Source of the DNA: Spirogloea muscicola
Lineage: Eukaryota; Streptophyta; Zygnematophyceae; Spirogloeales; Spirogloeaceae
Length of the DNA stretch: 27,220 nt
Assembly: GCA_009602725.1 (NCBI GenBank)
Contig: WELB01000287.1
Span: 33,043-60,262, forward strand
Direction of reading: 5' to 3'
Within the stretch, counting starts at the first letter, position 1. The number at the start of each line of letters is the position of its first letter. The notes beneath the pieces are model-generated. The model had not been told where the DNA came from and made no database searches. It saw only the letters and a program-made list of their open reading frames with translations. The translations under genes and the position numbers were made by a program. This document shows, piece by piece, positions 2,225-27,220 of the stretch.

Positions 2225-2725
2225 TTAGAAAGCAGAGGTGAGGCGCCAGACAACATCGGCTTGCTTTGTAGAATACATGCATATGGCATACTTTTTGTTG
2301 TCATAGCGTCCAACACAAGGACTATCAAATGTGCGTCCACAAGCGAAGCCCTCGGCAGCCCTGCCAGCGGTCCCTTCGACAGCGTGACGGCGGCTGTGCC
2401 GAGAAGCCGACGGGAGTTCACCTGACTCGCCTGCCTGGGGCGCGAGCGCCGCTGAGCTACTGCCGCCCCAGTCGCCACCGCCGCCAAAGTGGCAGCTGTC
2501 GCTGCTGCTGCTGCTTGGGCTGGCACTGGCGTCGCCGGATGCAACGGCGGCGGGCGGCGGCGGTCGCCGCTGCGGCGGCGGCGAGCGGTAGGGCGCGCCG
2601 TGAAGCGCCGCGGGCATGGACGCAAGGACGTGCTCGCTGTACACGCCAGCGGGCTTGTTGACGGCCACCAGGACGGCGTCGTCGTACAGCATGGCCGCGG
2701 CGCCCACCGCCGGCCCGGCGGCCAT
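2225..2725 (-). CDS. RluA-type RNA pseudouridine synthase, N-terminal exon only
   Basis: Read on the minus strand from ATG 2725, the protein soon contains LYDDAVLVAVNKPAGVYSEHV, here given as DDAVLVAVNKPAG. This is the first conserved motif of the RluA family, which isomerises uridine to pseudouridine in rRNA or tRNA. Only about the first 50 residues look like the family. After them comes low-complexity Pro/Ser/Gly/Ala sequence to a stop at 2225. The catalytic HRLD..TSG motif was not found on the minus strand down to position 1, so the gene continues through unrecognised introns, is broken, or is mis-assembled. The long open frame covering 2164-3153 on this strand is a shadow of the EF-Ts exons. 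Function is inferred from one motif; the start is uncertain because N 2739 is 14 bases upstream. Confidence 0.55.
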   Translation of the reverse strand: MAAGPAVGAAAMLYDDAVLVAVNKPAGVYSEHVLASMPAALHGAPYRSPPPQRRPPPPAAVASGDASASPSSSSSDSCHFGGGGDWGGSSSAALAPQAGESGELPSASRHSRRHAVEGTAGRAAEGFACGRTFDSPCVGRYDNKKYAICMYSTKQADVVWRLTSAF

Positions 2726-2738
2726 GGCGCGCTCCGCC

Positions 2739-2739
2739 N
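2739..2739. other. Ambiguous base N between two divergent genes
   Basis: A single N lies between the start of the minus-strand pseudouridine synthase exon and exon 1 of EF-Ts. The EF-Ts frame (codon starts at 2744, 2747 and so on) is out of phase with the nearby ATG at 2724; it would fit if N stood for two bases, or for a longer gap in the right phase. Confidence 0.95.
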
Positions 2740-2743
2740 GGGC

Positions 2744-5102
2744 TCGGCGGCGGCCATCCGGCGGCTGCGGGAGCGCACGGGCGCGCCCATGAAGGACGTC
2801 AAGGCCGTCCTCGTCGCCTGCGCCTGGGACGACGGTGCGGCCGCCGCCGCCGCCGCCGCCGCTTGCGATGGAGCAAGCGAGCGAGAGCAGGCCTCTGGTG
2901 GTGCTGAGTACATCCCGCTTCGTTGGCGGTGATGGCCGCAGAGGCGGCGTTCATGGAGTTGCGCAAGCGTGGCCTGGCGGCGGCCGGCAAGAAGCGCGGC
3001 CGCACCGCCGCCGAGGGCCTCCTGGGCGTCGCTTCCGCCCCCGGCGGCGCCGCCGTCGTGGAGGTCAACAGCGAGACGGACTTTGTGGCGCGCACTGACC
3101 TCTTCCGCCACCTGGTCTGCGCGCCACTTAAACCCGCGATCCTTAATACTCAAGTAACCCCAATTTAATCTACTGTAAGCCCAAAACCACAGCTGATACC
3201 AACAGGACTTTGCTGACTCGGGACGTCAGTAGCAGCGCCTCAGCCTGCGGCTTCGTAGTGGGGCAGCAACATGCACGGATCAAGGCTTGTGCAGTCACCT
3301 GGACTTAGCAGCTGCGATTCAGTCTCCGTCGGAACCCTTTGCCTCGGCTGCTGCAACATAACATCTGCTATGGCGGCCATTGACAAGGGGCCAATGCAAA
3401 AGAGCCCTGTGGCGCCCATCTTGCACTCATTGAAGAGCAAGCACTGGACACCACTTAGAAGCTGTTATCAAGGGGACGCTCCGTTGCCCTCTTACCTCTT
3501 CCCCACTTGCTGCTCAGCGATGGACTGTGACAAAGCAGCAACTGCGACTCGTGCCCCCCTGCAGGTGTCGCGCGTGGCTGCAGCAGCATGGGAGGCGGGA
3601 TTGAGTGGTGTCAGCAGCAGCAGCAGCATTGGCGGCATTAGGGAGGTTGCGTTGCCCCACTTGGAGGTACCACCTTACTCCCGCAGCACAATCGGCACCA
3701 ATCTGCACAATAGCACAATTGGCAAAGCTTGCCGAGCCGTGGCAGCTACTTCTGTGCGGCAGTCGGAGCCGATGCCGGATACTTCACTTGTGATTACCGC
3801 AAGTGCAGGCGTGTGTGATCACGCTGGAGCACCCGAAGCTGCAAGGAGAGGCGACGGTGCGGGACATGGTCGCAGAGGTGGCGGCCATTACCGGGGAGCA
3901 CGTGCGCCTCCGCCGAGGGTTTCGGCTGAGTCCGCCGGAAAGCAGCGGTAGCGGCTGCGGCAGCGGTGCTGTTGGCACATACTTGCACGCCAGTCCTGAG
4001 CCAGGTACGCAACATGCGACAGGTGCTCTGCCTGCGATCCTGTGAGGGTCATGCTGCTTCACCCACTGGCATGCACTCACCCAGCCGTGTCGTGCATGGC
4101 CGAAGGTTGCGTGCAGGCCTGGCAAGGATAGCTGGCCTGGTGAGCATCACAGGTGCTGGCAATGGGCTTGCGCCTCCACCACTGCAGGCGCTCCAGGAGC
4201 TTGCTGCCCAGCTTGCCATGCACGTGGTTGCTGCGCGGCCACTTTTCCTTTGCCGTGAGCTTGTCACAGAAGACGTCCAGCGGCGGGAGCGAGAGATCCT
4301 CGCCACGCAGGTCGCAAGTCGCATAGCTGGGATTTGCTCATTACAAGCCATGGGCTTGTAATAATTGTTGCCCAGGACTAGAAGCAGAGGAGGTCCTAGT
4401 GGAGGTAGCTGGGTGGTGCCAGTCAGTGCATATGCAAGATCTTGACAAAGGATCAGCAAGGCTGTGGTGGGGCAGCACTTACTCATGTCTTCTCCTCGTT
4501 TGGCTCCTGCTGGTTGGCAGGCGTCAACATCAGGCAAGCCGCAGAAAGTGGTGGACAAGATTGTCGGTGGCCGCCTGCAAAAGTACTTTGAGGATGTGGT
4601 GCTGTTGGAGCAACCGCTCGTTATGGATGACAGCAAGACCGTCGGTGTAGGTGCTAGGCTGCAGCACGCTTTTGTCCAATTCTTGCTGTTTGTTATGGTG
4701 CATTCTTGATGCAGGCGCAAGTAGAGGTTCGGATTTTTGACTGCATTGTCAAGTATTCATTTGCAGCTCAACATTGCATCCATGCCACCAGGCCTTTTTG
4801 AGTGCCGCCGGCAAGGACCTGGACTGCGAGCTGGCAGTTGCTGGCTTCCTCCGTGTGGAGGTCGGAGAGGGCATTGAGCGGTACGCAGTCACCGCTTGTA
4901 TGGAGCTGCTGCTTTTTAGCGTGCTAGACTCTTGCAGCTCAACCTGCAGTGATGGCAAGGCAAGGCGCATAGCCACTGGCAAGGCACATAGCCTGACTTT
5001 GGCGGCTTGGTAAATGTTGCTGTGCCCGCTCGCAGGGAAGACAAAGACTTTGCCGCTGAGGTGGCAGCTCAGGTTGGGAGGCTTACAGAGGCCGCCTTGT
5101 GA
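2744..5102 (+). CDS. TSFM: Organellar translation elongation factor Ts (EF-Ts), eight exons
   Basis: Guanine-nucleotide exchange factor for EF-Tu, acting in mitochondrial (or plastid) translation. Exons: ~2744-2834, 2942-3114, 3565-3666, 3809-4004, 4117-4310, 4521-4646, 4792-4880, 5036-5102. All junctions are GT-AG and the phases agree throughout. Landmarks in order: [16 protein letters not shown] (N-terminal UBA-like helix motif that binds EF-Tu); [23 protein letters not shown] (family signature); [54 protein letters not shown] with [25 protein letters not shown]; stop TGA 5100-5102. About 347 residues are visible, the usual size for a mitochondrial-type EF-Ts without its targeting peptide. 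The start and targeting peptide are missing: the reading frame meets N 2739 and no in-frame ATG is convincing. A TGTAA at 5406-5410 could be the polyadenylation signal. The exon 3 ends rest on phase and weak homology. Confidence 0.93.
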
Positions 5103-7094: not shown

Positions 7095-7260
7095 CCGAAG
7101 GGGGCGAGGACTGTGAAAGGCCAGCTCACCAAGGAAGGTGGGCTGGCCTTCGTAGCTGCTTAGAATAGAAGAAGGGCTCGCCCATTGAGGATCGGGGCTG
7201 GAAAAAGCCAGCCCAAGAAAGAATGAACAAAGGACGAGAAGGGGCCAGGGGAAGCACAAG
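7095..7260 (-). mobile_element. Two LINE 3' stem-loop segments
   Basis: The first (about 7101-7130) carries GACTGTGAAAGGCCAGCTC. The second (7170-7230) carries GAAGGGCTCGCCCATTGAGG, then the stem GGGCTGGAAAAAGCCAGCCC at 7195-7214, then AAGAAAGAATGAACAAAGG. The second matches the 26362-26489 copies closely (subfamily with the CTCGCCCA.TGAGGAT flank). Confidence 0.75.
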
Positions 7261-10534: not shown

Positions 10535-11925
10535 TCACGATGAGCTGGCGTGGACCAGGCGCGGCTTTCCTGTGGCAGGCTCAAGCTGGACTTCCCACCC
10601 CAGCTCCCGCAGCTGCTGATTGTCGGCGACGCCCTGGAAAGTGAGTGCTGATACCTCGCACGCGTTTGCGTCGCTGCCTTCCAGCAGGTTGCGCATGGCA
10701 AAGAGGCCCCACTCACGGAGCCAGGGGTTACGGTCGTCCACGACGCACTGCTGCAGCACAAGCAGCAGCTTGCCCCGCCGCCGCACCTCGTCCTGGCACA
10801 AAGGGCGGCGGTAGACGGCATTGCAAATGACTGCTACGAGCCCCGTGCGGTAACCAGAGTAAGGCTCCACGACCGGGTAAGCGGATGATGCAGAGCCAGC
10901 ATTCGCTATACGCGCCGTCGGGGCCTCTGCCATGCCTCCACGTACTTCTGTGGCTCGGAGCGTTGCCGGGAGAGGTTGGGGCAGTGCCTCGAGCGCATCA
11001 AGTACTCGATTGAGGACACTGCCGAGCACCTCGGTAGCATCACTAGAGGCCGCTGCGCCAGCGGTCAGTGACCGCAGCAGCTGCAGGGAGCAGGCTAGAA
11101 CAGCCGCAAAGGGATCAGCTCCACCAACCTCCAGGCCGCCCAGATCTGAGCCCCTCGCACTATCGCTTGCCAACCGGGGGGCTGGTGGTCCAGCGTTTGT
11201 AGGATTTGTCGAGGTCAGCGTGCTGCCGCCCCGTTGCTGACGCTCCCTTACAGCAGCAGCGGCCTGGGCAAAGAGGTCGGCGATGACGGGCAGGAGCTGC
11301 AGAGGGCCGACCCAGTCAGCTGTCGGGCGCCTGCAGTCTGTGGCAGTCGCGACCGCTGGCTCGCTGCCAAGGCTTTGGGGCAGCGCTGCCTCGTTCTGAT
11401 GGCTCTTCTCATCAACAAGGACGGCGAGGATTGTCAGCAAGCTGGCCTGCTCCTCGGTCATCACATCCACGGGTGCCAGACACTCATCGCCAACGGTGTC
11501 CACCGCTGCCTTCGCCGCTGCCTGCGCTGCTAGGCCGGCAATGAGGTCGCTGAGCAGCGGCCGCTGGAGGCAGAGGGCGCCAACCAGCAGCTGAAGCCAC
11601 GTTCCGGCACCATCGGAGACTGCAGAAGCGAACGATGGTCATTAAAGGCCGCCGGTGCTGATGCCAGAAGCCGGCGCTCGGGCACGGTGTGCAAGCTTGC
11701 GCCCTTACCGCTCTCCTTGCCAGCGCCGCTGAGGAGTGCAGCGAGGCAGCGCGCGCCAGGACCATGGCAGAGCTCCTTGCAGCGGTCGCCGCTCTCGCGG
11801 CAGCAGGTGTAGAGGACCATGGCGAGGGGCTCGTGCAGGGCGTCGGCGCGGAGGCCGGCGTCAGCCAGCAGGAGTGGCGAGACGGCTGGCGAGATGGCGC
11901 GAGCGTCAAGGATGTCAGTGAGGTG
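10535..11925 (-). CDS. ATXN10: Ataxin-10 homologue (armadillo-like), 5' end missing
   Basis: Minus strand, two exons visible: about 11925-11709 and 11619-10535 (stop at 10535), joined by an 89-base GT-AG intron (donor GGTAAGG, acceptor CTGCAG) with matching phase. About 433 residues are visible. The C-terminal ~100 carry the ataxin-10 domain: GYRTGLVAVICNAVYRRP, then VVDDRNPWLREWGLFAMRNL and LEGSDANACEV, matching the family pattern of a lost-nucleus armadillo repeat followed by D.NP..REW..FA.RNLLE. The first visible exon begins LTDILDARAISPAV, preceded in frame by TGA at 11928-11926 with no obvious acceptor between; the true upstream exon is unclear. In animals ataxin-10 acts in cytokinesis and glycosyltransferase regulation; the algal role is unknown. 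Immediately upstream lie N 12132 and a LINE fragment. Confidence 0.82.
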
Positions 11926-12131: not shown

Positions 12132-12132
12132 N
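12132..12132. other. N at the junction of ataxin-10 5' DNA and LINE
   Basis: The LINE-derived sequence starts immediately right of the N (12133, GTAGCTAGCAGGCGG). To the left is GC-rich DNA leading to the ataxin-10 exons. The junction may be a true insertion boundary or an assembly join. Confidence 0.95.
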
Positions 12133-12489
12133 GTAGCTAGCAGGCGGAAAGACGTCGCCCTGACGGAAGCCGGAGGCCGCCGCCAGAGCGCGGCCTGCGC
12201 GCAAGTGGACCGCAAAAGCTAGGGACCGCTGCAAAGAGACGGCCAGGCGCATCCGGTAAACTTGGGCGAGGGACCCGGCGACATGGAAGCCAGGCTGCTC
12301 GCCTTGCTGCCCGTCGCGGCGGGCCGCTGCTCGCCGCGCAAGGCGGTGGAGGAGGTCCAGCCATTTGGCGCCATAGGCGCCGTGTACGACGGCGAGTGGG
12401 ATAAACTCGTCGCCTACCGGGTGATCTGAGTACTTGCGCTCCTTTGCGGCGGCCGCTTGGCGGACGGCAAACAGGGGTCTTTCGGCCAC
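12133..12489 (-). pseudogene. LINE ORF C-terminal fragment, best-preserved copy
   Basis: The minus-strand frame from 12489 is open to the N at 12132. It contains DEFIPLAVVHGAYGAKWLDL, LLHRLARRAAARRDGQQGE, VYRMRLAVSLQRSLAFAVHL and RAGRALAAASGFRQGDVF. The first part has the pattern F.PLA....G..G......L..L, and VSLQR..A is typical of the very C terminus of many non-LTR retrotransposon RT proteins. Sequence left of the N belongs to something else, so the longer open frame (11926-12489) is a chimera. The copy lacks the RT core and its 3' tail. Confidence 0.7.
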
Positions 12490-12654: not shown

Positions 12655-12800
12655 TCCAAGGTGGCGAGGGCCGTGATCAGCCAGTCCACAGAAGATGAAA
12701 AAGGGGCAAAGGAGAAGTAGTGGCTCTCCCAATGGGGGCAAGGGCTGTGAGAAGCCAGCCCGAAAAGAATTGACAAGGTTCGAAGGGGCCAAACTACGAG
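12655..12800 (-). mobile_element. LINE 3' stem-loop segments, tandem
   Basis: First piece: GGCGAGGGCCGTGATCAGCC then AGTCCACAGAAGATG. Second: GGCTCTCCCAATGGGGGCAA, then the stem GGGCTGTGAGAAGCCAGCCC at 12742-12761, then GAAAAGAATTGACAAGGTTC and GAAGGGGCCA. Both match the tails at 7195 and 25234. They lie about 750 bp upstream of ABC copy A. Confidence 0.75.
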
Positions 12801-13507: not shown

Positions 13508-16500
13508 ATGAGCGCTGCGGACGCGGTGCCGCGGCCGCGCTCCGCGTCCCGTGCCGCCGTCGACGACAAGGTGAGCCTCTCGGGGCGCAGAGACTTCGTA
13601 TCGCTCTCGGTGGCAAACTCAGGACCGGTCCGCCGTCAAGGCCTGCGCTTCTCGGCGTGGCCGCAGGTAGCGGAGCTCGAGCCGCTTCCAGAGACGAGCC
13701 ACCGGCACCTGCCGCGCCACTTCTTCGCCATCGCGAGCAGCTACTTCATTGGCGATCAGCGGTGGAAGGCGCGCAGCCTCATGGCCGTGATGCTGGCCCT
13801 CACCGTCGGCAAAACCGGTGAGCAGTGTGGGCACAACTATGCATCATCCAGCTTCCGACACCTTCGAGTACAGGTTTCGACCGCAGCTCCGCTGCTGGCT
13901 GCTCGGCAGCCTTGCAGAGTCCTCCCTGCAACCTGATGTTGTTCTGGTCTAATGCCATGTTTAGTTGACTGTGCCTTGATGTCTTCGTGTTCCCTTGTTG
14001 GTGTGGCCAAAGGCATCAGGGTGTTGATGTCATACGCGCAGCGGGACTTTACCACTGCCATGGCAAAACGGGACAAGGACGCGTTCTATTTCTCAATTGC
14101 CAAATACCTTATCCTTGTCCTCGTTGCTTCGCCGCTGTTTGCCTTGTACGACTACATGAAGGTGAACTACACCATCACATCTTAAGGCTACAATATTCCG
14201 CTTTGACACCCTTCAGACCTGCTTTGTCAGTGGGCTTGGAGAGTGACTAAGTGGCCTTCGGCAAGTGCAGGGCGTTCTGGTCCTGGAGTGGAGGGTGTGG
14301 CAGACAGAATCTATCTTGGCGCAGTATTTCGGTAAGTCCAGGGGTGCCAAGCCCAATCTCAGACCTTGCTGCTCCATGCTCAGTGATTGGCGAAGTTGGA
14401 AGCTGGATCTGTATAATCAACACCCTGCACAAGCAGCAACGAGGGGCAAGCTGCCACTGGGCTGGTCAGTAAGCTGCTACTGACATGCTATGTCCTCACT
14501 GGTGAAGCCAATAGGGCCTACTTTGAGGTCAAGATGAATGGAAAAATCGACAATCCCGATCAGCGCATCTGTGAGGACACCTCCAACTTCGTGCAGACAA
14601 CAGTTAGCATCCTCATGATCCTTGCAGACAAGGTCTTGAGCTTGGCAGCCTTTGCTGGGGTGCTCTGGTAAGATCAGATTGCTGCATCCATATTTGATTA
14701 GCAAGCTCCAGGCTGGCCATGCAGAGTATGCAGCACTCTGTGTCATCCTTTATCCCAACCTGCAAAAATAGATGCGCTTTTCAGATAAAAAGTTGCCATT
14801 TTCTTTTGACTTGAGAAGGTGCCACAACTCTATGACTCCTCACCATCTCATTGGTAGAGCAACTTTGCACTGGCAGGTCAATCTCTCCGACACTTGTGTA
14901 CTTCATCATGTCTTACTCTGTTCTGGGAACCATTGTGACAGTCCAGCTATTTGGCCTCAAGCTGATGAGCCTGCATGCAATATGAGGTGATCGCAGCATG
15001 CACTTCAGCTCAGAAGTGGTGAAAGTAGGGGTTGCTTTTGATTGAGATGCGAAGTACATACCCCTGTGCTTTGACATCACCTGCAAGCAATGACAAGCCA
15101 GACAGTCCTCCTGTCTCTGCTTACCATCTTGACACGTTGTCATCACAGCGTTTCCAACGTGAAGCAGACCTCCGATATTCACTTGTTCGCGTGCGCGACA
15201 GTGCCGAGTCCATTGCTTTCTACCGCGGCGAGCCCAGGGAGCTGGCGTGTGTGACTGTGAGCTGCACAAAAGCTTGCAACTATACGGGCATGTCAAAGAT
15301 GCTGAACACATAGGATTGTGTGATTTTTATGCAGGCTTGGTTGACAATGTCTCCTTGTCCTGAATGTGAAGGCCTGCTTCTGACCCGCAAAAGTTGAAGC
15401 CCAATTTGCATGGCTGTCTGCATTCAGTGCTTCCTGAGGCTGCTGGTGGAAAACACATGGGAGCGCTTATTGTGGCACCGGCACTTGGGCCTGTTCATCA
15501 ATCTCTATGACCACGTGACAATCGTTGTCCCATCCCTGATCATTGCCCAGCAGTACTTTGCGGGCGAGGTGATCATCCTCCCTGCAGCACAGCAAGCATC
15601 TCAGCATATATATGTCAAGTCTGAATTGGCAAGGCATGTCTTTGCTTGTCCTTCACGGCCCAACTTCATGGGGATGCCCTCTTTGGTCCTGCAAAGGTGG
15701 TATGGAACGTGAAGTTGAGCTCGCAGGAAGGTTATGCAGCTGTTGCAGTCTACTTCATTGGGCACGGCTAAGAGACTTTCTGTTATTGCAGGTGGAGTTT
15801 GGCGTTGTGACCCAGACTGCTTATGCCTTCACTACCATTCTGCATGCACTCATGGTTTTTGTCACCAAGTTTGAGGATCTCAGGTCAAAGACCACGAGTG
15901 CTACTTGAGGCTTTTGTTTACTTGATGCTAATTTGTATGTATAGCAACAGCTCCGCATACATGACACTGCAGGCCAGCCTTACTACAAGTAGCTGGCTGC
16001 AGCCCCCAATCAAGTCCCCATGTTGTCAGGGCCTAGCTCATCAATCATACAGTCACATTTTCTGTGTTTTTGACTGAGCTGCAGTGGTCTGGCAGCCAAG
16101 ACGGAGCGCTTGGACGGCCTATTACGGTCCTTGGGCTTCAAGTCAGAAGCTTTTTGCAGTGGTGACGCCACTGTCTCAGTCCAAGGAAAAGGGGATAATG
16201 CGCAGCATCTTAAGAAAGAGCCACCAGATAAGAGCGAAACGGAGCTCTCTAAGACCGGAGGCTGGGTTGGAGATTCTGAACCTTTGCTCCACAGCGTCAT
16301 CCCATCCAAGCTAATGAAGGTATGTGATTGCCCTCCTGCCTTGCTTCACGATTTGAGTCCTGACGTCAATCTTGACTTCAAGCTGACTCCAACGATTTGA
16401 CCGTCGGCCGTTTTGAAACAAGTATGTGATTAGAAGCATTGGGCACCAAAGAGACAGGAGAGCTGAGGAGCTTGCTGACATTGATTCACAGTCTTCTCCT

Positions 16501-17926
16501 TGGCCTATTTAAGGAGGAGTAATTCTCCACGAGGAAGCAGACACACTCTCGCTGCAGGGCGTGTCCCTCGCAACACCAGACCGGCGGCACGTCCTATTCG
16601 AGCAGCTGACATTTTCGCTGGACAAGGGTGAGGCTTTGCTCATCATGGGCCCATCAGGATGCGGCAAGTCGTCGCTGCTGCGGGCCATCGCCGGACTTTG
16701 GCGTGCCGGCGAGGGAGTGATAACGCTGCCGCCTGCGGAGGAGGTCTTCTTCCTCCCGCAGAAGCCGTACATGCCTCAAGGATCACTTCGGACACAGGTC
16801 TCAGGCGAACTGCAAATCGTTATCTTCCCCGCAAGATTGCTATATAGCCGTACCATGCCTGGAATTTTTCCCACAAGTATTATCATGACCTCCACAAGTT
16901 TGCTGTGAAGGCAAAGCTGGCAAGCCTTGGGTGGCTCATCGGCAACACGGAGCTTCACAGTGTCAACTCATTGGATCGATCTGTGGCCTCCTTGCACAGC
17001 TGCTGTTTCCAAAAGAGAGTGTCAAAGGCAAGGAAGTGGACGATCTGGAGCTGCTCAATGTGCTGGTCGATGTGGCTCTTGAAGCGTTGCCGGATCGAGT
17101 GGGGGGCTTGGATGCTAAGTGCAACTGGTCCGACATGCTGAGCTCCGGCGAGCAGCAGCGCATCGCCTTCGCCCGTGTTGTCCTGCATGCAAGTGCATGC
17201 AACCCTCCTCCATGCTGTCCACTTTTCATAAACATATCAAAGTCAATGGTCTGTTACTGAAGCAAGTGTGTAGCTTGTATTCCGATTACTTAGCAACATG
17301 TTAGTAGTTGCTCTCACATGTATTGATTTGTTGCACCTGGCACAAATCTCAGGAGTTGCACAGGTGCTGCAAATCTGGCTGCAATTCGGCCTTGCAGTCA
17401 GAAATTGGATTTTGACACCCGTGGAAACTGAGATCCCCCTTGTGGTATGCAGCGGCCTGCCATTGCGTTCCTGGACGAAGCCACGAGCGCATTGGACAGC
17501 GCAAACGAGGCGAAGCTGTACAACCTTCTACGGCAGCATGTGGGCAGCTATGTCAGCGTTGGCCACCGTCCGTCCCTCCTCCAATTTCACACACAGGTAT
17601 CAGCTGCACTACCACCGGCTTTACCTCCAACTTCCTTGTGAGCACATAGATTGCTCCAGCATGCAGTGCTATTCCTGAAGGACATTTGCTGCACAGTCAA
17701 CATGCTCGTATACACGATTGGTCGCCTAGCAAAGTCCCTGCGCTGGCATTGCACTTTTCGCATTCTCATCCACAGTGTCATCACCTGGATTGGGCACCTC
17801 CTTCTCTGAGTGATGTGCCGCTTAGGTGCGTAAATGTGCGAGCAGGTGCTGCACGTCACGGAGGACGGCCGCTGGAATCTCTGCCGGGCGGAGGAATTTC
17901 AAGTGGCCCAGTCTCGAGCTCAATGA
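13508..17926 (+). CDS. Plastid-type ABC half-transporter, copy A (ABCD2/YddA-like), with an exon 5 frameshift
   Basis: Half-size ABC transporter: an N-terminal membrane domain (peroxisomal/SbmA-like type) and one ATPase. Exons: 13508-13817, 14013-14161, 14271-14331, 14508-14667, 14877-14986, 15149-15256, 15428-15568, 15792-15883, 16085-16319, 16534-16797, 17000-17188, 17453-17596, 17846-17926. Phases agree everywhere except exon 5. About 679 residues if the exon 5 lesion is set aside. The first ~60 residues are rich in Ser/Arg/Ala (possible transit peptide). Membrane-domain landmarks: [20 protein letters not shown] in exon 4, [20 protein letters not shown] in exon 6, QQYFAGE in exon 7. ATPase: Walker [10 protein letters not shown] (~493-501), Q-loop [12 protein letters not shown], signature LSSGEQ (~589-594), Walker B IAFLDE (~609-614), H-loop His ~643. 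Intron 11 is GC-AG. The start ATGAGC is conserved in copy B. Oddity: TGCA is duplicated at 14972-14979, giving TGA at 14983 and wrong phase at the exon 5 donor. Substrate unknown; plastid location inferred from plant ABCD2. Confidence 0.85.
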
Positions 17927-18969
17927 GCCCACTCCGTTGCAGGATGCCAGCTTTTTGCAGAGAGCATCGCTTGCTCCCAGCTTGAACAGAACTGGTGCCT
18001 TGGAAGTTCCTTCTGTACTATGGCGGAGAAAGAGAGCTGCGCATTGTGCAGCTATTGCTGGGCCCTTTGACTTGTACAGGCATGCTTATGATGCAATTGC
18101 TCGGGTCCGAGTGCAGAGCCTGAGTCTCAACACCTTTGCCAGGCCTCTGTTTGAAAAGGACTCGGCTGACATTTCATCTTTGGCGCCTCATGGCAGCCCT
18201 TGCAGTGCACAGCGGCAGAATATCTGGAGAACCTTCTGTAACGCAAACATTCCTTGCTCATGGCACCACTGCCAACAGATAACTTATAAAGAATACACTT
18301 GTCAAGCTAAAGTACCAGGTTTGCGACTTTAGAAATGAGAGGACGAGCTGCCACAGCTCACGAATCAAGTCTCCTATGACAGGCGTGGTTGGTGAGTGAT
18401 TTAGTGAGGTGATCGTCACCAGTTGATCTGTGGATCGTGTCAGCCCAAGTGTGCCCTTGTGCCAGCAAGCTGAGCTTAGAAGCTTCACTGTAAGGCAGTG
18501 GTAAGCATACTTGGCTGCTAGCTACTCCGGGTTGCCGCCGTTCATCAGGGGTTTTAGATTACCTACGTGAAGTAGCCACATGCCAGCTGGTGGTTTGTGC
18601 TTTCTGGCCCTGTGACCTCTTACATCCTGAGCTGGCCTTTCACACCCTCGCGCCCTGTGGAGGAGCTTCAATTAGTAAGGTAGTGGAAGCTCTGCCATTG
18701 CCGCCACCACCGATGGCCCGCCCTCTGACATACCCGCTGCCTCCTCCAACACCTCGATCGCCTCAGCTGCAACTTTTTGGACTTCCGGTTGCTGACTACG
18801 ATCTATGAGCGGCCATACGTGGTTGTCACTTGCTTTCCCAAGTAGACACGCTTTCCAGCTCCTTCAAATAGTCCTTCATGTGGCCGGCATGTCACAGCCA
18901 TCGTCCCTTGGGAAAAGCTTTGCACCAGAAAGCTGGACGAGCTCTAGTTGGTGGCAGAAACGGAAGTAC

Positions 18970-19330
18970 TTTCCCAAAATTGGTGATGGCTGTGAAAAGG
19001 CCAGTCCAAGGGTTGATGGACGAGGTCAAAGGGGCAGGAAAATGCTACACCACAAAGCTACGCAAGTGGCTACTACGAACGGGTTGCTCACGACCCCTAG
19101 TCAGCAGCCGCAAGTCCGAGTAGGAAGCAGTCGGGATTGTCCCACTGCGGTAAGACTTACGAGCAGCAGCCAACAGGCGAAAGGCCAGCAAGTGCTTTTG
19201 CAAACGCCTGAAAGGGCTGGAGCGAACCTTGTTGATGCATGCCGACCACCTGACCGAGCAAACAGCGGCATCGAAGCCGGGCTGCTCGACTTGATGGTCT
19301 TGGCGTCGGGTGATCGCTCGGCTCGCCTCT
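18970..19330 (-). mobile_element. LINE fragment: ORF C terminus plus 3' tail, degenerate
   Basis: The minus-strand translation of about 19330-19160 resembles the 12133-12489 copy: QDHQVEQPGFDAA aligns with GQQGEQPGFHVA, and in another frame GSLQPFQAFAKALAG aligns with VSLQRSLAFAVHLRAG. So frameshifts have accumulated. Toward lower coordinates the tail follows: AGCAGCCGCAAGTCCGAG (about 19105), then the stem-loop region GATGGCTGTGAAAAGGCCAG at about 18985-19005. Gene order matches the 25207-25600 copy. Confidence 0.65.
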
Positions 19331-19393
19331 GGACCTTGATCCGTCTTTTGTTGGCTGGCTTTCCTTGGCCCTTGGACCTGTGTTCGTTCTTCT

Positions 19394-19530
19394 GGGCTTT
19401 CAAGAAGAAGGGCTCGCCCATGGAGGATAGGGGCTGGCCCCATCCCCTAATCAGACCTTGTAACGTTCCTCTGGGCTGGCCTCTCACAGCCCTTGCCTTA
19501 CACTGGAAGAGTAGTGCGCGCCCATAGAGA
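19394..19530. mobile_element. Two opposed LINE 3' stem-loop segments
   Basis: A minus-oriented piece has GAAGAAGGGCTCGCCCATGG then AGGATAGGGGCTGGCCCC (about 19403-19441). A plus-oriented piece has the 20-base stem-loop GGGCTGGCCTCTCACAGCCC at 19473-19492, followed by TTGCCTTACACTGGAAGAG. They face each other head to head, about 430 bp upstream of ABC copy B. Confidence 0.7.
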
Positions 19531-19922
19531 AGAGGGCTGGCAAGCTGGGAAGAGCTGTTCCTTTCTTCTGAGAGATGCTGCTGCTTCTTCCTCGAATCCA
19601 CGAATAAATCACAAACAGCCAGCCCGAGTAGGACGGCGTCTGATAGACTTCCGCGCCCTGCAAAGTCAACGGCGCAGCATGGCGGAGCGCGCTGATTCGG
19701 CCGGCCGGCAGATTCCCTCCACTCCCGGCGTCGCCGGAGCACCCCTGGCGGTCCAGCAGTGCCCGCCGCCGCCGCCGCCGCCGCCGCCGCGGATTGCGGC
19801 GGGCTCCGCGCCGCGCCCCACGAGAGACCGGAGTCCGATTCTCCGGCTCGCGGCGGCGTCGATGTGGGCAGGGCGGCGCCCATCTCCGCAGCGCCGCGGC
19901 TTCAATCGGCGGCGGCACTCTG

Positions 19923-22900
19923 ATGAGCACCGCAGCGGCGGGTCTGCGGCAGCGGCCTGCGCCCGGCGCTGCCGCCGACGACGAGGTGGCCCAGAGGCTT
20001 CGTCGCTCTGGCACCATTGGCGTGTTGATAGTGTCCTCCGTAGTGGTCCTGGGACCTGTCCACCATTGAGGCCTGCGCCGCTCGGCGTGGCTGCAGATGG
20101 CCGAGCTCGTGGCGCCGCCGAGTGCAAGCCAGCGGCGCCTGCCGCGCTTCTTCGCCATCGCGAGCGGCTAATTTGTCGGCGACCAGCTGTGGAAGGCGCG
20201 CGGACTTGGGGCCGCCATACTCGCCCCCCCAGTCGGCAAAATCAGCGAGCAGTCCAAGCTTTAAAATGAGACGTTCAAGCGCAGTGTCGCTTTCGCAGCT
20301 CCAGCGCTACCTGGCTGCACAGTATTGCAGCTTAGAGGAGTCGTCTCTGCATTGGGTGCTGACTTGACTCGAGGTATGGTGATCGATTGGGCTGTACAAT
20401 ATGGGCTACCTGCACGGTACACAAATGCACGATCAACGGGGAGGCATTGACTAGACGGCTGACAAAAATATCTCCATGCTCCCTGCCTGATGTGGCCGAA
20501 GGTATCAAGGTGTTGATGTCATACACGTCGCGGGACTTCACCACTGCCATGACACAGAGGGACAAGGACGCATTCTACTTCTCGGTCGGGAAGTACCTTG
20601 TCATTGTCCTCGTCGCTACGCCGCTGTTTGCCTTGTACGACTATATGAAGGTGACTACGCCATTACGTCTTTCTGCTCTGTGCAGTCCAACTTGATTGAC
20701 CTGAGACCCTCTTCGTTCTGATGCTAGTCTCGGTGGAAAAAGAGTGAGACAGCAGTCTTGTCAATGAAAATCTGCACTGCTTCAATCGCTGCAGGGCGTT
20801 TTGGTCCTGCAGTGGAGGGTGTGGCTGATGGATTCTATCTTGGTGCAATATTTTGGCGAGTCCAAAGAATGCAAAAGCGAGTCCCACAGCTGCCACTCCC
20901 TGCTTACCAAGCAGCATGCTGAACGCTAGAATCTCCATCCAACAGACCTGCACAAGCAGCTACAAGCTGGTCGAAGATCTGACAATATTTTGTCACTCTC
21001 TATTTGGTGAAGCCAATAGGGCCTACTTTGAGGTCAAGATAAATGGGAAGATCGACAACCCTGACCAACGCAGCTGTGAGGACACCTCCAACTTCGTGCG
21101 TACAATTGTTAGCCTCTTCATGATCCTTGCTGACAAGGTCTTGAGCTTGACAGCATTTGGTGGGGTGCTCTGGTGAGCACAGCCTCGTGCTGCATACAGT
21201 TCTTCTCAGCTGCATTCAAGCTCCAGGTTATGCCTTCAGGGCATGCAGGCGTGCTGACAAAGCAGCAACATGTGTCATCTATAATGTCAACTTGCAGAAA
21301 TTAGATGTAATTTGGTATTGCAGCTCTTTGTGGGGTTGGGAAAATGCGAGTGTCGACAGGATGATAACATTTTTCAGACTGCAAGAGCATGCTGTTTGCC
21401 AACCATCTATTCTTGCTTTAGGAGGTCAATTTCTCCAAACCTTGTTTACTTCATCATGGCCTACTCCGGCCTGGGGACGTTTATGACAATCCAGCTGTTC
21501 GGCCTGAAGCTGATGAGTCTGTAGTTTGAGGTGAACACAGCATGTGCTTCAGGTCAGAATGCATGAAGCAAGGGGTTATGTCCCTGGCGAAGTACAGATT
21601 CCTGTGCTCCGAAACCCTCATTCCAGCAAAGCGAAAGCCTGCCAGTCAGTCCTCCCGTCTCTGCTTTCCATCTTGACACAAGGACTCACGTTGTTGTCAC
21701 AGCGTTTCCAATGTGAAGCAGACCTCCGGTATTCGATTGTTCGCGTGCGCGACAGTGCTGAGTCAATCGCTTTCTACCGTGGCGAGCCCAGAGAGATGGC
21801 ATGTGTCAATGTGAGCTGCACAATGTCCTTGCAACTGTGTGGGCATGTCAATGTTGATGAATGGTTAGAGTGTGTAGTTCCTCTGCAGGGTCAGCTGACA
21901 TTGTCTACATGTCCTCAATCTGGAGGCCTGCCTCTGACTTCCTCAACGTTGCAGCCCACCTTCCTGAGTTGCTAGGCTTTGCTTGATTCAGCGCTTCTTG
22001 AGCCTGTTGGTGAAAATTACGTGGGAGCGCCTACTGTGGCACCGCCATTTGGGCCTTTTCATTAGTCTCTATGACCACGCGACGATTGTGGTCCCGTCCC
22101 TGATGATAGCCCGGCAGTATTTTGCAGGCGAGGTAATCCTCCCGCCGAAGCACAGCAAGCAAAGGGCAATAGATAGACTGTTTTCAAGTCTGGAAATGGC
22201 AGGCATGTCTTTCTCCCCTCGTTGGAATAACCTCTCTGGTCCTGCAAGATGGCATGACAGGTGATATCAAGCCTCGTTGAATTCATGCAGCTGTCGCAGC
22301 CCAACTCAATCCAATTTATTGGGCTCGTCTGACATTGCAGTTGCTGCTAAGTCAGGTGGAGTTTGGCGTGGTGACCCAGACTCGCTATGCCTTTACTACC
22401 ATCCTGCATCCACTCATGGTCTTTGCCACCAAGTTTGAGGATCTCAGGTCAAAGCCTACAAGAGCTAATACAAGCTCTTCTTCTCTTTAGAGTCCTTGTA
22501 TGCATCGCAATAGCACTGCATGCATGACAGTGCGCAGACAGTTGCTTCGAGTAGCTGGTTGGCCTCACCCCAATGGAGATGTTGGGATACCCCATCCTCA
22601 AGCACCCTTGTTGTCAAGGCACAAGGTCATCAGTCATACAATCACACCATCTGTACTCTTGACTGACTGACTTGCAGTTGTCTGGCAGCTAAGACGGAGC
22701 GCTAAGACGGCCTACTGCGGTCTTTGGGCTTTCAATCAGCAGACTTTGGCAGTGGCGTTGCGACAGTCTCAGTCCCAGGAAAAGCACAGTACCAACTAAG
22801 GAAGAGCCCTCAGATACGAGCAAATTGGAGCTCTCCGAAAGGGGAGGCTTAGTTGAAGATTCTGAACCTTTGCTTCATAGTGCCATTCGAGTCACTGAAG

Positions 22901-24515
22901 GTACGCAAGTTGCTGCAGAGACTCTGAACCTTTGCTTATAAAAATATTTATCTACGAAAGATACGAACAGTTTCTGTTGTGCTGTCCTGCTTGGCGCAAG
23001 TTCCAAAGACATATCTTGCTCTAGGAACGAACAACAATACGCTGGCCCTTTTGTTTCAACGGCGAGATCATGACTAGAAGCATCGTGCACCAAGAGACAG
23101 GAAAGCTGAGGAGCATGCTGACTTTGATCGACACTCTTCTTCTTGCATTGTCGAAGTAGGAAAAATTCTTCACAAACAAGCAGACACGCTCTCCCTGCAG
23201 GGCGTGTCGCTTGCGACGCCAGACCGCGGCCACATCCTATTTGAGCAGCTGACATTCTCGCTGAACAAGGGTAAGGCTTTGCTCATCATGGGCCCATCAG
23301 GATGCAGCAAATCATCGCTTCTGCGGGCCACTGCCGGACTCTGGCATGCCGGCGAGGGCGTCATTACGCTTCCGCCTGTTGAAGATGTCTTTTTCCTTCC
23401 CCAGAAGCCTTACATGCCCCAAAGATCACTCCGGACACAGGTCTCGGGCAAGCCTCCTCCTCCTCAGCCTCAGAGTTGCCATGTAGCCATACAATGCCCG
23501 TCTTGTTTAAGCATGTATGCATAAGTAATGTGAAGGCAGTGCTGGCAAGCCCAAATGACTTTTTGCCGTGCTTGAGCATCACAATGTCAACTCACATGTA
23601 TTGTGGCCTCCTTCCACAGCTGCTGTTTCCAAAAGAAGGCAAGGAGGTGAACGACAAGGAACTGCTGAATTTGCTGGTCGATGTGGCTCTTGGAACGCTG
23701 CCGAGTCGCGTGGGGGTCCTGGACGCCAAGTGCAACTGGTCCGACATGCTGAGCTCTGACGAGCAGCAGCGCATCGCATTCGCCCGTGTCGTCCTGCATG
23801 CAAGTGCCTGCAACATCCTCCACCACTTTCAGGGCTGACTACTTGGAGCACAGACTCAGCTGCTGTTGTACCTGGCAAGTTGCAGAAGTTTCAAATGACA
23901 TTGCACTCCTGGCTGGTAAATTGGCCTCGCAGTTGGCCTTGCAGCAGTAGGAGCTGGAATACGACACCCATGCAGATTGAGAATCTTCTTGTGGTGTGCA
24001 GCGGCCTGCCTTCGCATTCCTGGACGAAGCCACAAGCGCAGTGGACAGTGCAAACGAGGCGAAGCTATACAGCCTTCTGCGGCAGCATGTGAGCAGCTAC
24101 GTCAGCGTGGGCCATCGCCCGTCCCTCCTCCAGTTTCACACACAGGTAACACTGTCCCTGCGCTGCTTCCTGGCTCTTCTCAGAATTGCTTGTAGGCTGG
24201 TATGCTTTCTCCATAGTACACTGCGATCGAGGAGAGACGTTCTTCGTGTGCTACTGTCAACCTGCTCACACATATGACAACTTTCACAAGTTGCCCAGCA
24301 AAGACTCAGCACCAGCCAGAGTGTTTTTGCCCCTTTCTCATCTCAACACACTGCAATTCATACTGCAAATCAATTACCTAACTTATTAGTACCTCCTTTG
24401 AGAGTTGGGCTTTGGTACGGTCACATACGAGCAGGTGCTGCATGTCACGGAGAATGGCCGCTGGAAGCTTTGCAGCGCAGCGGAGTATCAAGTGGCCCAG
24501 TCGCGAGGTCAATAA
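19923..24515 (+). pseudogene. ABC half-transporter, copy B: tandem duplicate, multiply disabled
   Basis: Paralogue of the gene at 13508, with the same 13 exons and phases: 19923-20244, 20502-20650, 20795-20855, 21013-21172, 21425-21530, 21703-21810, 21992-22132, 22356-22447, 22678-22900, 23177-23440, 23620-23799, 24002-24145, 24435-24515. Eight internal exon lengths are identical to copy A (2-4, 6-8, 10, 12); exon 5 equals copy A minus its 4-bp duplication; exons 1, 9 and 11 differ by +12, -12 and -9. Identity is 39/50 residues in exon 2 and 44/48 in exon 12. Lesions: in-frame TGA 20067, TAA 20169 (TAC in A), TAG 21522, TAA 22703; GC instead of GT at donors 1 and 3; AA instead of AG before exon 10 (23175-23176). 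In the ATPase, Walker A is GPSGCSKSS and the signature is LSSDEQ, each losing a key glycine; Walker B (LDEATSAVD) and the H-loop remain. The four stops make a full-length product unlikely; a shorter downstream product is possible but would lack ATP-site glycines. Confidence 0.88.
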
Positions 24516-26215: not shown

Positions 26216-26361
26216 GTTGATGTGGCCGCGCTTGCCTTTAGATGTAGGCCACCTGCTGCTGTACTTAGCAAGAGGACAGAATGCGGCTGCTGATATCACA
26301 GAATTGACTGCCAGCCAGATGCATACAGGTGTTCATGACGGAGCCAAAGGCTAGGCTTCTT

Positions 26362-26489
26362 TTTTGGGCTGGCTTTTCCAGCCCTTATCCTCAATGGGCG
26401 AGCACTTTCTTCAAGGCTAGGCAGACAGGGCGCCCTCAGAAGAAAGTGCTCGCCCACTGAGGATAAGGGCTGGAAAAGCCAGCCCAAAA
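26362..26489. repeat. 51-bp inverted repeat made of two LINE stem-loops
   Basis: The left arm 26362-26412 and right arm 26439-26489 are reverse complements at 50 of 51 positions (one ATT/ACT difference), separated by 26 bases. Each arm itself holds a small stem-loop: GGGCTGGCTTTTCCAGCCC at 26366-26384 and GGGCTGGAAAAGCCAGCCC at 26467-26485. The outer flank of each is the CTCGCCCA.TGAGGATAAGG subfamily sequence, also present at 7170-7214. Confidence 0.95.
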
Positions 26490-26556
26490 GAGAATGAACA
26501 ATACCCCCGTTTCAGCAGTAGGAAGTCAGATGACCTGAGGGGAGGAAGAGCAACCC

Positions 26557-26671
26557 CGATGCAGCGATCCCTTGCCTTCGCGGTTGACTTGCGCGCAGGC
26601 CGAGCTTTGGAGGCGGCATCCGGCTTCCGTCAGGGCGACGTCTTTCTTCTTTCTTTCCGCCGGCTAGCTAC
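26557..26671 (+). mobile_element. Short LINE ORF C-terminal fragment
   Basis: Encodes QRSLAFAVDLRAGRALEAAS then GFRQGDVF, almost the same as the end of the 12133-12489 copy. A ten-base TTCTTCTTTC-like insertion follows the DVF codons. Homology stops after GCTAGCTAC (26663-26671), the same sequence at which the 12133 copy meets its N. Confidence 0.75.
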
Positions 26672-26683
26672 TCAGACTTTCAT

Positions 26684-27220
26684 CTTCTGGTGGTGCTTGG
26701 AGTCCCGTTGGGGGCTGCTGCGCATGTGGAGCAAGTTGTGGAGTCCACCCTTTAGAACCATCTCCAGACCCTCCCGGCCCTCCCCTCCTTACAGGATGCG
26801 CAGCTTGCGGTGGCCATCCTCACCCGGTGTGTGGCCCAGCGTCCCACTTACCTGTTGCGGACTGTACCCCCCACCACGGCACTAAACGCCATCTACTCTA
26901 CCGTGGACTCCAGACTCCAACAGGCTCTTCACGGCCTGGTGGACCATCCCAATTTGTCCGCCACGCCGGCTGCCATCCTCCAGTGTACCCTTCCTACCAG
27001 CATAGGCGGCCTTGGGTGCCGTCCACTGGCTCGCCTGTCCCAAGCAGCTCACCTGGGTTGCTGGGCCCAAGTGGCCTCCACCATCTCCAGTCGCTTCATC
27101 CTGAGGGGCCAGGCTGTTTTAGCACCCGCTATAGCAGGTGTTGCAACAGGGAACCTACCCTTCCAGCTTTCCCTGACCGCAGCACTGCATGACCTCTCGC
27201 GCTCTTTACCAACACTTGCA
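26684..27220 (+). pseudogene. LINE reverse transcriptase, C-terminal half of RT domain, runs off window
   Basis: One frame of 179 codons is open to the window edge except for TAG at 26753-26755 (codon 24). It contains LLVVLGVPLG (the block after the RT catalytic core in many non-LTR elements), TYLLRTVPPTTALNAI, LPTSIGGLGCRPLARLSQAA, HLGCWAQVASTISSRF and NLPFQLSLTAALHDL. The catalytic YADD motif should lie upstream and is absent, so the copy is truncated at its 5' side at about 26672, directly against a different LINE 3' fragment. Presence of one stop in otherwise long open sequence suggests a fairly young insertion. Confidence 0.75.

Follow-up and report, generated by a model that had tools for sequence, protein, structure and literature searches.

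The analysed window comprises 27,220 nt of Spirogloea muscicola (Zygnematophyceae; GenBank assembly GCA_009602725.1, contig WELB01000287.1, positions 33,043 to 60,262 of the forward strand) and contains a tandem pair of genes, here called copy A and copy B, both of which code for half-size ABC transporters of the ABCD or ABC_membrane_2 type. A model with 14 exons is in phase at the junctions of both copies, and its sole break is a short duplication in exon 5 of copy A. The model exons add up to 1810 nt in copy A and 1794 nt in copy B and are 84 % identical between the copies, compared with 64 % for the introns. When exon 5 is left aside, the exons differ at 65 first, 47 second and 145 third codon positions, that is, mainly at third positions. 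Both copies are interrupted in exon 5, and the state of each gene and the meaning of this shared position are the subject of this analysis.

The assignment to the family is based on several lines of comparison. The Pfam family PF06472 (ABC_membrane_2) scored above its cut-off in exons 4b and 6 of copy A and in exon 6 of copy B, while copy A exons 3, 7, 11 and 12, scanned singly, matched neither PF06472 nor PF00005. Read exon by exon with an X at the lesion, copy A matched 9wfg, ABC transporter D family member 1 and presumably a plant protein, with an E-value of 1.4e-108 for the whole sequence and residues 54-587 as the best stretch, and 6tqe, which we take to be bacterial, with an E-value of 1.4e-70. 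For a family alignment, prokaryote genomes were scanned with exon 10, which gave at least 524 matches; the best 80 of these were taken, and 77 of the fetched loci were aligned, three being dropped since they lacked a whole frame with a transmembrane domain (TMD) and a nucleotide-binding domain (NBD). Copy A is up to 45 % identical to these bacterial relatives. A scan of viral contigs with exon 4b returned 14 pattern matches, none of which was a relative. With 9wfg and the bacterial relatives, the pair shares the TMD-NBD layout and a segment between transmembrane helices 4 and 5 which we take to be the EAA-like segment; it is identical in both copies and equals the consensus of the 77 relatives. 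The pair differs from 9wfg in being half-size, as 9wfg has 1337 residues in two matching halves, and from the ABCD subfamily in that both copies are interrupted in exon 5 and copy B also lacks two key glycines of the ATPase domain. By family, the product is predicted to be a peroxisomal or plastid transporter of the fatty-acid type that carries acyl-CoA. No paper on this locus was found in the portion of the literature that was searched.

The lesion in copy A was read directly and by script, and both confirmed what had been noted from the sequence alone, namely that a tandem TGCA leads to a premature TGA. These four extra bases throw exon 5 of copy A out of phase, whereas the exon in copy B has a length that fits the phases of exons 4 and 6. 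In copy B, CTG TAG TTT GAG stands at 21519-21530 as had been reported. An origin of this TAG from CAG had also been proposed; the TAG stands, but CAG is only one possible precursor among others. The column holds N in 63, S in 6, K in 4 and T in 4 of the 77 relatives and never Q, and the family therefore does not determine the codon that preceded the lesion in copy B. The claim that both copies are broken at the same codon holds insofar as the frame of copy A is first altered in the codon that is TAG in copy B, but the stop of copy A follows three codons later.

The disputed segment is well anchored in the family. The 13 columns from the site to position +12 are ungapped in all 77 relatives, and both flanks, KLMSL before the site and (F/Y)E-RFQ-EADLR after it, align with them. 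Since the flanks align without gaps, the last three codons of exon 5 belong to the coding sequence, and neither stop lies in an intron. Judging by this fit, the predicted boundaries of exon 5 are right. As sequenced, copy A would encode about 230 residues, stopping short of the EAA-like segment, the membrane helices that follow and the entire ATPase domain.

An apparent second lesion of copy A, in exon 9, was also considered. In neither copy does a long form of this exon (to 16319 in copy A and 22900 in copy B) join exon 10 in phase, and the best-conserved part of it has 5, 6 and 8 differences at the three codon positions, with no clear excess at third positions. The short form, with donors after 16161 in copy A and after 22754 in copy B, is in phase. 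With the short exon, the linker from TERL to Walker A in copy A has 65 residues, the commonest value among the relatives (32 of 77). The second lesion was therefore rejected. Within intron 9, the stretches 16211-16300 (with 22797-22886 in copy B) and 16441-16513 are 79-81 % identical between the copies, compared with 64 % for introns overall; they may contain an element for splicing or regulation, or what was once a linker exon.

The sequence-only reading had offered three explanations for the shared position: both genes are dead, a hidden splicing alternative exists, or the duplication in copy A is a sequencing or allelic variant. It was silent on two further stops and two altered ATPase glycines in copy B. 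Both stops are TAA and replace residues that are conserved in the family, and in the NBD the glycines of Walker A and of the signature are changed to Ser and Asp, so that copy B lacks the full set of intact NBD motifs. Among 115 columns in which at least 90 % of the relatives share one residue, copy B alone departs from six and copy A alone from one, and 12 departures are shared. With three stops and these six nearly invariant columns changed in it alone, copy B has the characteristics of a duplicated pseudogene. Judged by its stops and altered glycines outside exon 5, copy B is dead whatever exon 5 does. Like unprocessed tandem pseudogenes in general, it keeps its introns and exon lengths and has stops and changes of invariant residues; this pair differs in that copy A has a single lesion and both copies are struck in one codon. 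GC donors are found in copy B at 20244, 20855 and 22754, where copy A has GT, and all 13 of its acceptors are AG. The donor of exon 11 is GC in both copies (17188 and 23799), and this organism may tolerate introns of the GC-AG type.

Copy A presents a different picture. Its Walker A, Q loop, signature, Walker B and H loop are all intact, and no lesion other than the duplication was found in the roughly 600 codons of the model. It is closer than copy B to each of the 77 relatives, and its single lone departure among the conserved columns gives no sign of relaxed constraint. The proposal that both genes are dead is thus strongly supported for copy B, independently of exon 5, but for copy A it depends on a single duplication.

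Table 1. Coordinates of the gene pair, its lesions and other features of the model (positions in the window; slashes mark splice junctions).
Feature	Position	Strand	Remarks
Copy A, 14-exon ABCD-type half-transporter gene	13508..17926	+	exon model, phases and motifs; intact save for the exon 5 duplication
Copy A exon 5	14877..14986	+	110 nt; donor GAG/GTGATC
Tandem TGCA TGCA, frameshift in copy A exon 5	14972..14979	+	sequence TGCATGCA
Candidate GC donor, copy A	14977..14978	+	CAT/GCAATA; frame kept with two residues fewer; pairs very weakly with U1
Premature TGA, copy A	14983..14985	+	after 230 codons; read CTG CAT GCA ATA TGA
Copy A exon 6	15149..15256	+	PF06472 (ABC_membrane_2), E 1.9e-8; carries the EAA-like segment
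Copy A intron 9	16162..16513	+	short exon 9 donor, 16161/GTGACG
Copy A exon 10	16514..16797	+	PF00005, E 1.1e-10; Walker motif intact
Copy B, tandem duplicate of copy A	19923..24515	+	exon total a multiple of three; three premature stops
TAA, copy B exon 2	20169..20171	+	Tyr in copy A; Y in 62/77 relatives
Copy B exon 5	21425..21530	+	106 nt; exon model
TAG, copy B exon 5	21522..21524	+	after 226 codons
TAA, copy B exon 9	22703..22705	+	Leu in copy A; L in 76/77 relatives
Copy B exon 10	23157..23440	+	Walker A Gly to Ser (GPSGCSKSS)
Copy B exon 11	23620..23799	+	signature Gly to Asp (LSSDEQQ)

The ratio of nonsynonymous to synonymous divergence (dN/dS) between the copies was estimated on 587 codons with NG86 and YN00. 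Codon pairs containing a stop, codons split by introns and four codons of copy A, one of them in exon 2 and the others in exon 11, were excluded, as was copy A exon 5 past 14973 together with the last three exon 5 codons of copy B. The alignment contains four indels between the modelled exons, one of which is a gap at the terminal stop. With NG86, dS is 0.49 and dN 0.095. The overall dN/dS is 0.194 or 0.188. For exons 3-13, the bootstrap median is 0.157 (0.116-0.211). The ratio is 0.174-0.200 in exons 3-5 and 0.141 (NG86) or 0.176 (YN00) in exons 6-13, downstream of the site. These low downstream values indicate that both copies were translated past the codon for most of their history, and neither an inherited lesion nor recoding is therefore needed to explain the pair. 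A far higher ratio would be expected if either copy had evolved without selection ever since the duplication. The stops of copy B amount to 3 over 57 opportunities (0.052); taken together with the six changes in 115 conserved codons and compared with half of dS, they would mean, as a rough estimate, that copy B has been free of selection for some 10-20 % of the time since the duplication.

From the observed lesions, phases and motifs, the constraint between the copies and the fit to the family, the pair is probably a recent pseudogene with multiple lesions, copy B, beside an otherwise healthy gene with one more recent, or erroneous, frameshift, copy A, and the shared position is likely to be coincidental. 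An ABCD-type half-transporter gene would have been duplicated in tandem long ago, and selection would have retained both copies for most of the time since. Copy B would then have lost constraint and gathered its three stops, the exon 5 TAG among them, and the changes of its catalytic glycines. Copy A would have gained one 4-bp tandem duplication in exon 5, although this may be a fixed change, one allele or a fault of the assembly. The decay of copy B probably came first and the lesion of copy A later, and transcripts presumably use the splice sites as drawn.

Several observations weigh against this interpretation. Under random placement, the chance that the exact codon is shared is P = 0.005; within one codon, it rises to P = 0.015 and within three codons to P = 0.035. 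In this calculation, which is post hoc, the three stops of copy B were placed by nonsense mutability and one lesion of copy A at random. TGCATGCA occurs six times in the window compared with 2.0 expected by shuffling, and 3 of 100 shuffles reach six. Copy B is also tidy for a dead gene: all of its 13 acceptors are still AG and all of its 13 donors still GT or GC, and its exons have no frameshifting indel relative to copy A apart from that of copy A itself. Its excess of unfavourable changes is moderate, as the scored residue differences favour copy A in 57 cases and copy B in 37, with 7 ties and 13 in mostly gapped columns. Finally, exons 1-2, which are poorly conserved, are far less constrained, with a dN/dS of 0.35-0.50. 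As regards the exact codon, the earlier argument that chance would seldom place independent lesions together is fair in its numbers, but the several lesions of copy B and the post hoc nature of the test make it weak. Chance looks adequate to account for the shared position, with no hidden mechanism. A local mutation-prone site is possible but unproven.

A serious rival, if a less likely one, is that copy A is a working gene, that a sequencing or assembly error, or else a rare allele, accounts for the extra TGCA, and that only copy B is dead. The intact ATPase motifs of copy A, its freedom from other lesions and its greater closeness to every relative are all as this rival would have it, and three N calls in the window (2739, 7315 and 12132) indicate that the assembly is unfinished. 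On the other side, the exons of copy A show no further frameshift, and a tandem duplication of four bases outside a homopolymer is an unusual base-calling error, which counts against an error. On balance, the duplication is judged slightly more likely to be real DNA than an error.

A hidden splicing alternative found little favour. The canonical exon 5 donors pair well with U1 (-6.8 kcal/mol in copy A and -7.0 kcal/mol in copy B), and the donor 9-mer in copy A has the same nine bases as its exon 7 donor. Skipping of exon 5 was rejected, as it would join the phase 2 end of exon 4b to the phase 0 start of exon 6. If GT and GC donors are allowed, 21 alternatives in copy A and 16 in copy B would give an open frame from exon 5 to exon 6. 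The exon 6 acceptor is kept by only five of those in copy A, four of which lose at least 14 residues, and by two of those in copy B, with a loss of at least 24; the remaining alternatives in either copy insert intron sequence or trim exon 6. The GC donor after 14976 is the only alternative in copy A that keeps this acceptor at a cost of no more than two residues. Copy A could in principle evade the stop by this donor, which leaves the frame open, joins the usual exon 6 acceptor and would yield an in-frame protein that lacks two residues immediately ahead of the EAA-like segment. The modelled exon 11 does have a GC donor, CAT/GCAAGT, in both copies, with the same CCTGCATGCAA spanning the junction. 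However, the candidate is estimated to pair with U1 at +1.3 kcal/mol, whereas the normal donor, which lies 10 nt away, reaches -6.8 and the model's other GC donors range from -1.5 to -4.8. Splicing at the candidate would also delete two residues of a block that is ungapped in all 77 relatives. Such an escape is accordingly improbable. The same low probability is given to the further idea that the duplication itself created the in-frame GC donor that rescues its frameshift, in a sequence context shared with the gene's exon 11 GC donor, so that copy A survives with a slightly shortened helix while copy B dies.

That one lesion predates the duplication and was inherited by both copies would account for the shared codon, but the lesions differ in kind and the dN/dS of 0.14-0.18 downstream points to translation long after the duplication, which makes this reading very improbable. 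An altered code in which the stops are read as amino acids, so that neither copy is broken at the codon, can practically be set aside: copy B does keep its frame length of 1794 nt, and TAA accounts for two of the three premature stops in it, but these TAA codons stand at Y (62/77) and L (76/77) columns, TAA also terminates copy B where TGA terminates copy A, and the frameshift in copy A would be left uncured.

The remaining features of the window are side observations. An inverted repeat at 26357-26494, with 56-nt arms that are 96 % complementary and a 26-nt spacer, resembles a miniature transposable element, and related GGGCTGGC/GCCAGCCC pieces were seen by eye near 7170-7210 and at the inverted pair 12737-12779 / 19455-19497. 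A second inverted pair of 87 nt (12147-12233 and 26560-26646), 89 % complementary and 14 kb apart, flanks the ABC genes. An open frame at 26801-27220, which reaches the end of the window and had no match in a Pfam scan, presumably resembles the tail of a retroelement reverse transcriptase. On the minus strand, 10538-11503 encodes an Ataxin-10 homologue with the C-terminal domain (PF09759, E 1.6e-26), and a single N lies at 12132. Exon pieces at 2690-5100, of which the one scanned (4192-4317) had no Pfam match, are taken by us to resemble an elongation factor Ts gene, and 1903-2208 holds a tandem repeat of 153 nt in two copies that are 92 % identical.

The locus is a caution that two stops at one codon can mimic a mechanism when one copy is multiply broken and the single lesion of the other could be removed by reads. 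It is of low interest unless transcripts reveal an escape through the GC donor. If the lesion in copy A is real and fixed, the organism would be losing, or would just have lost, both of two tandem copies that selection had kept, and the pair would be a small case of late gene loss.

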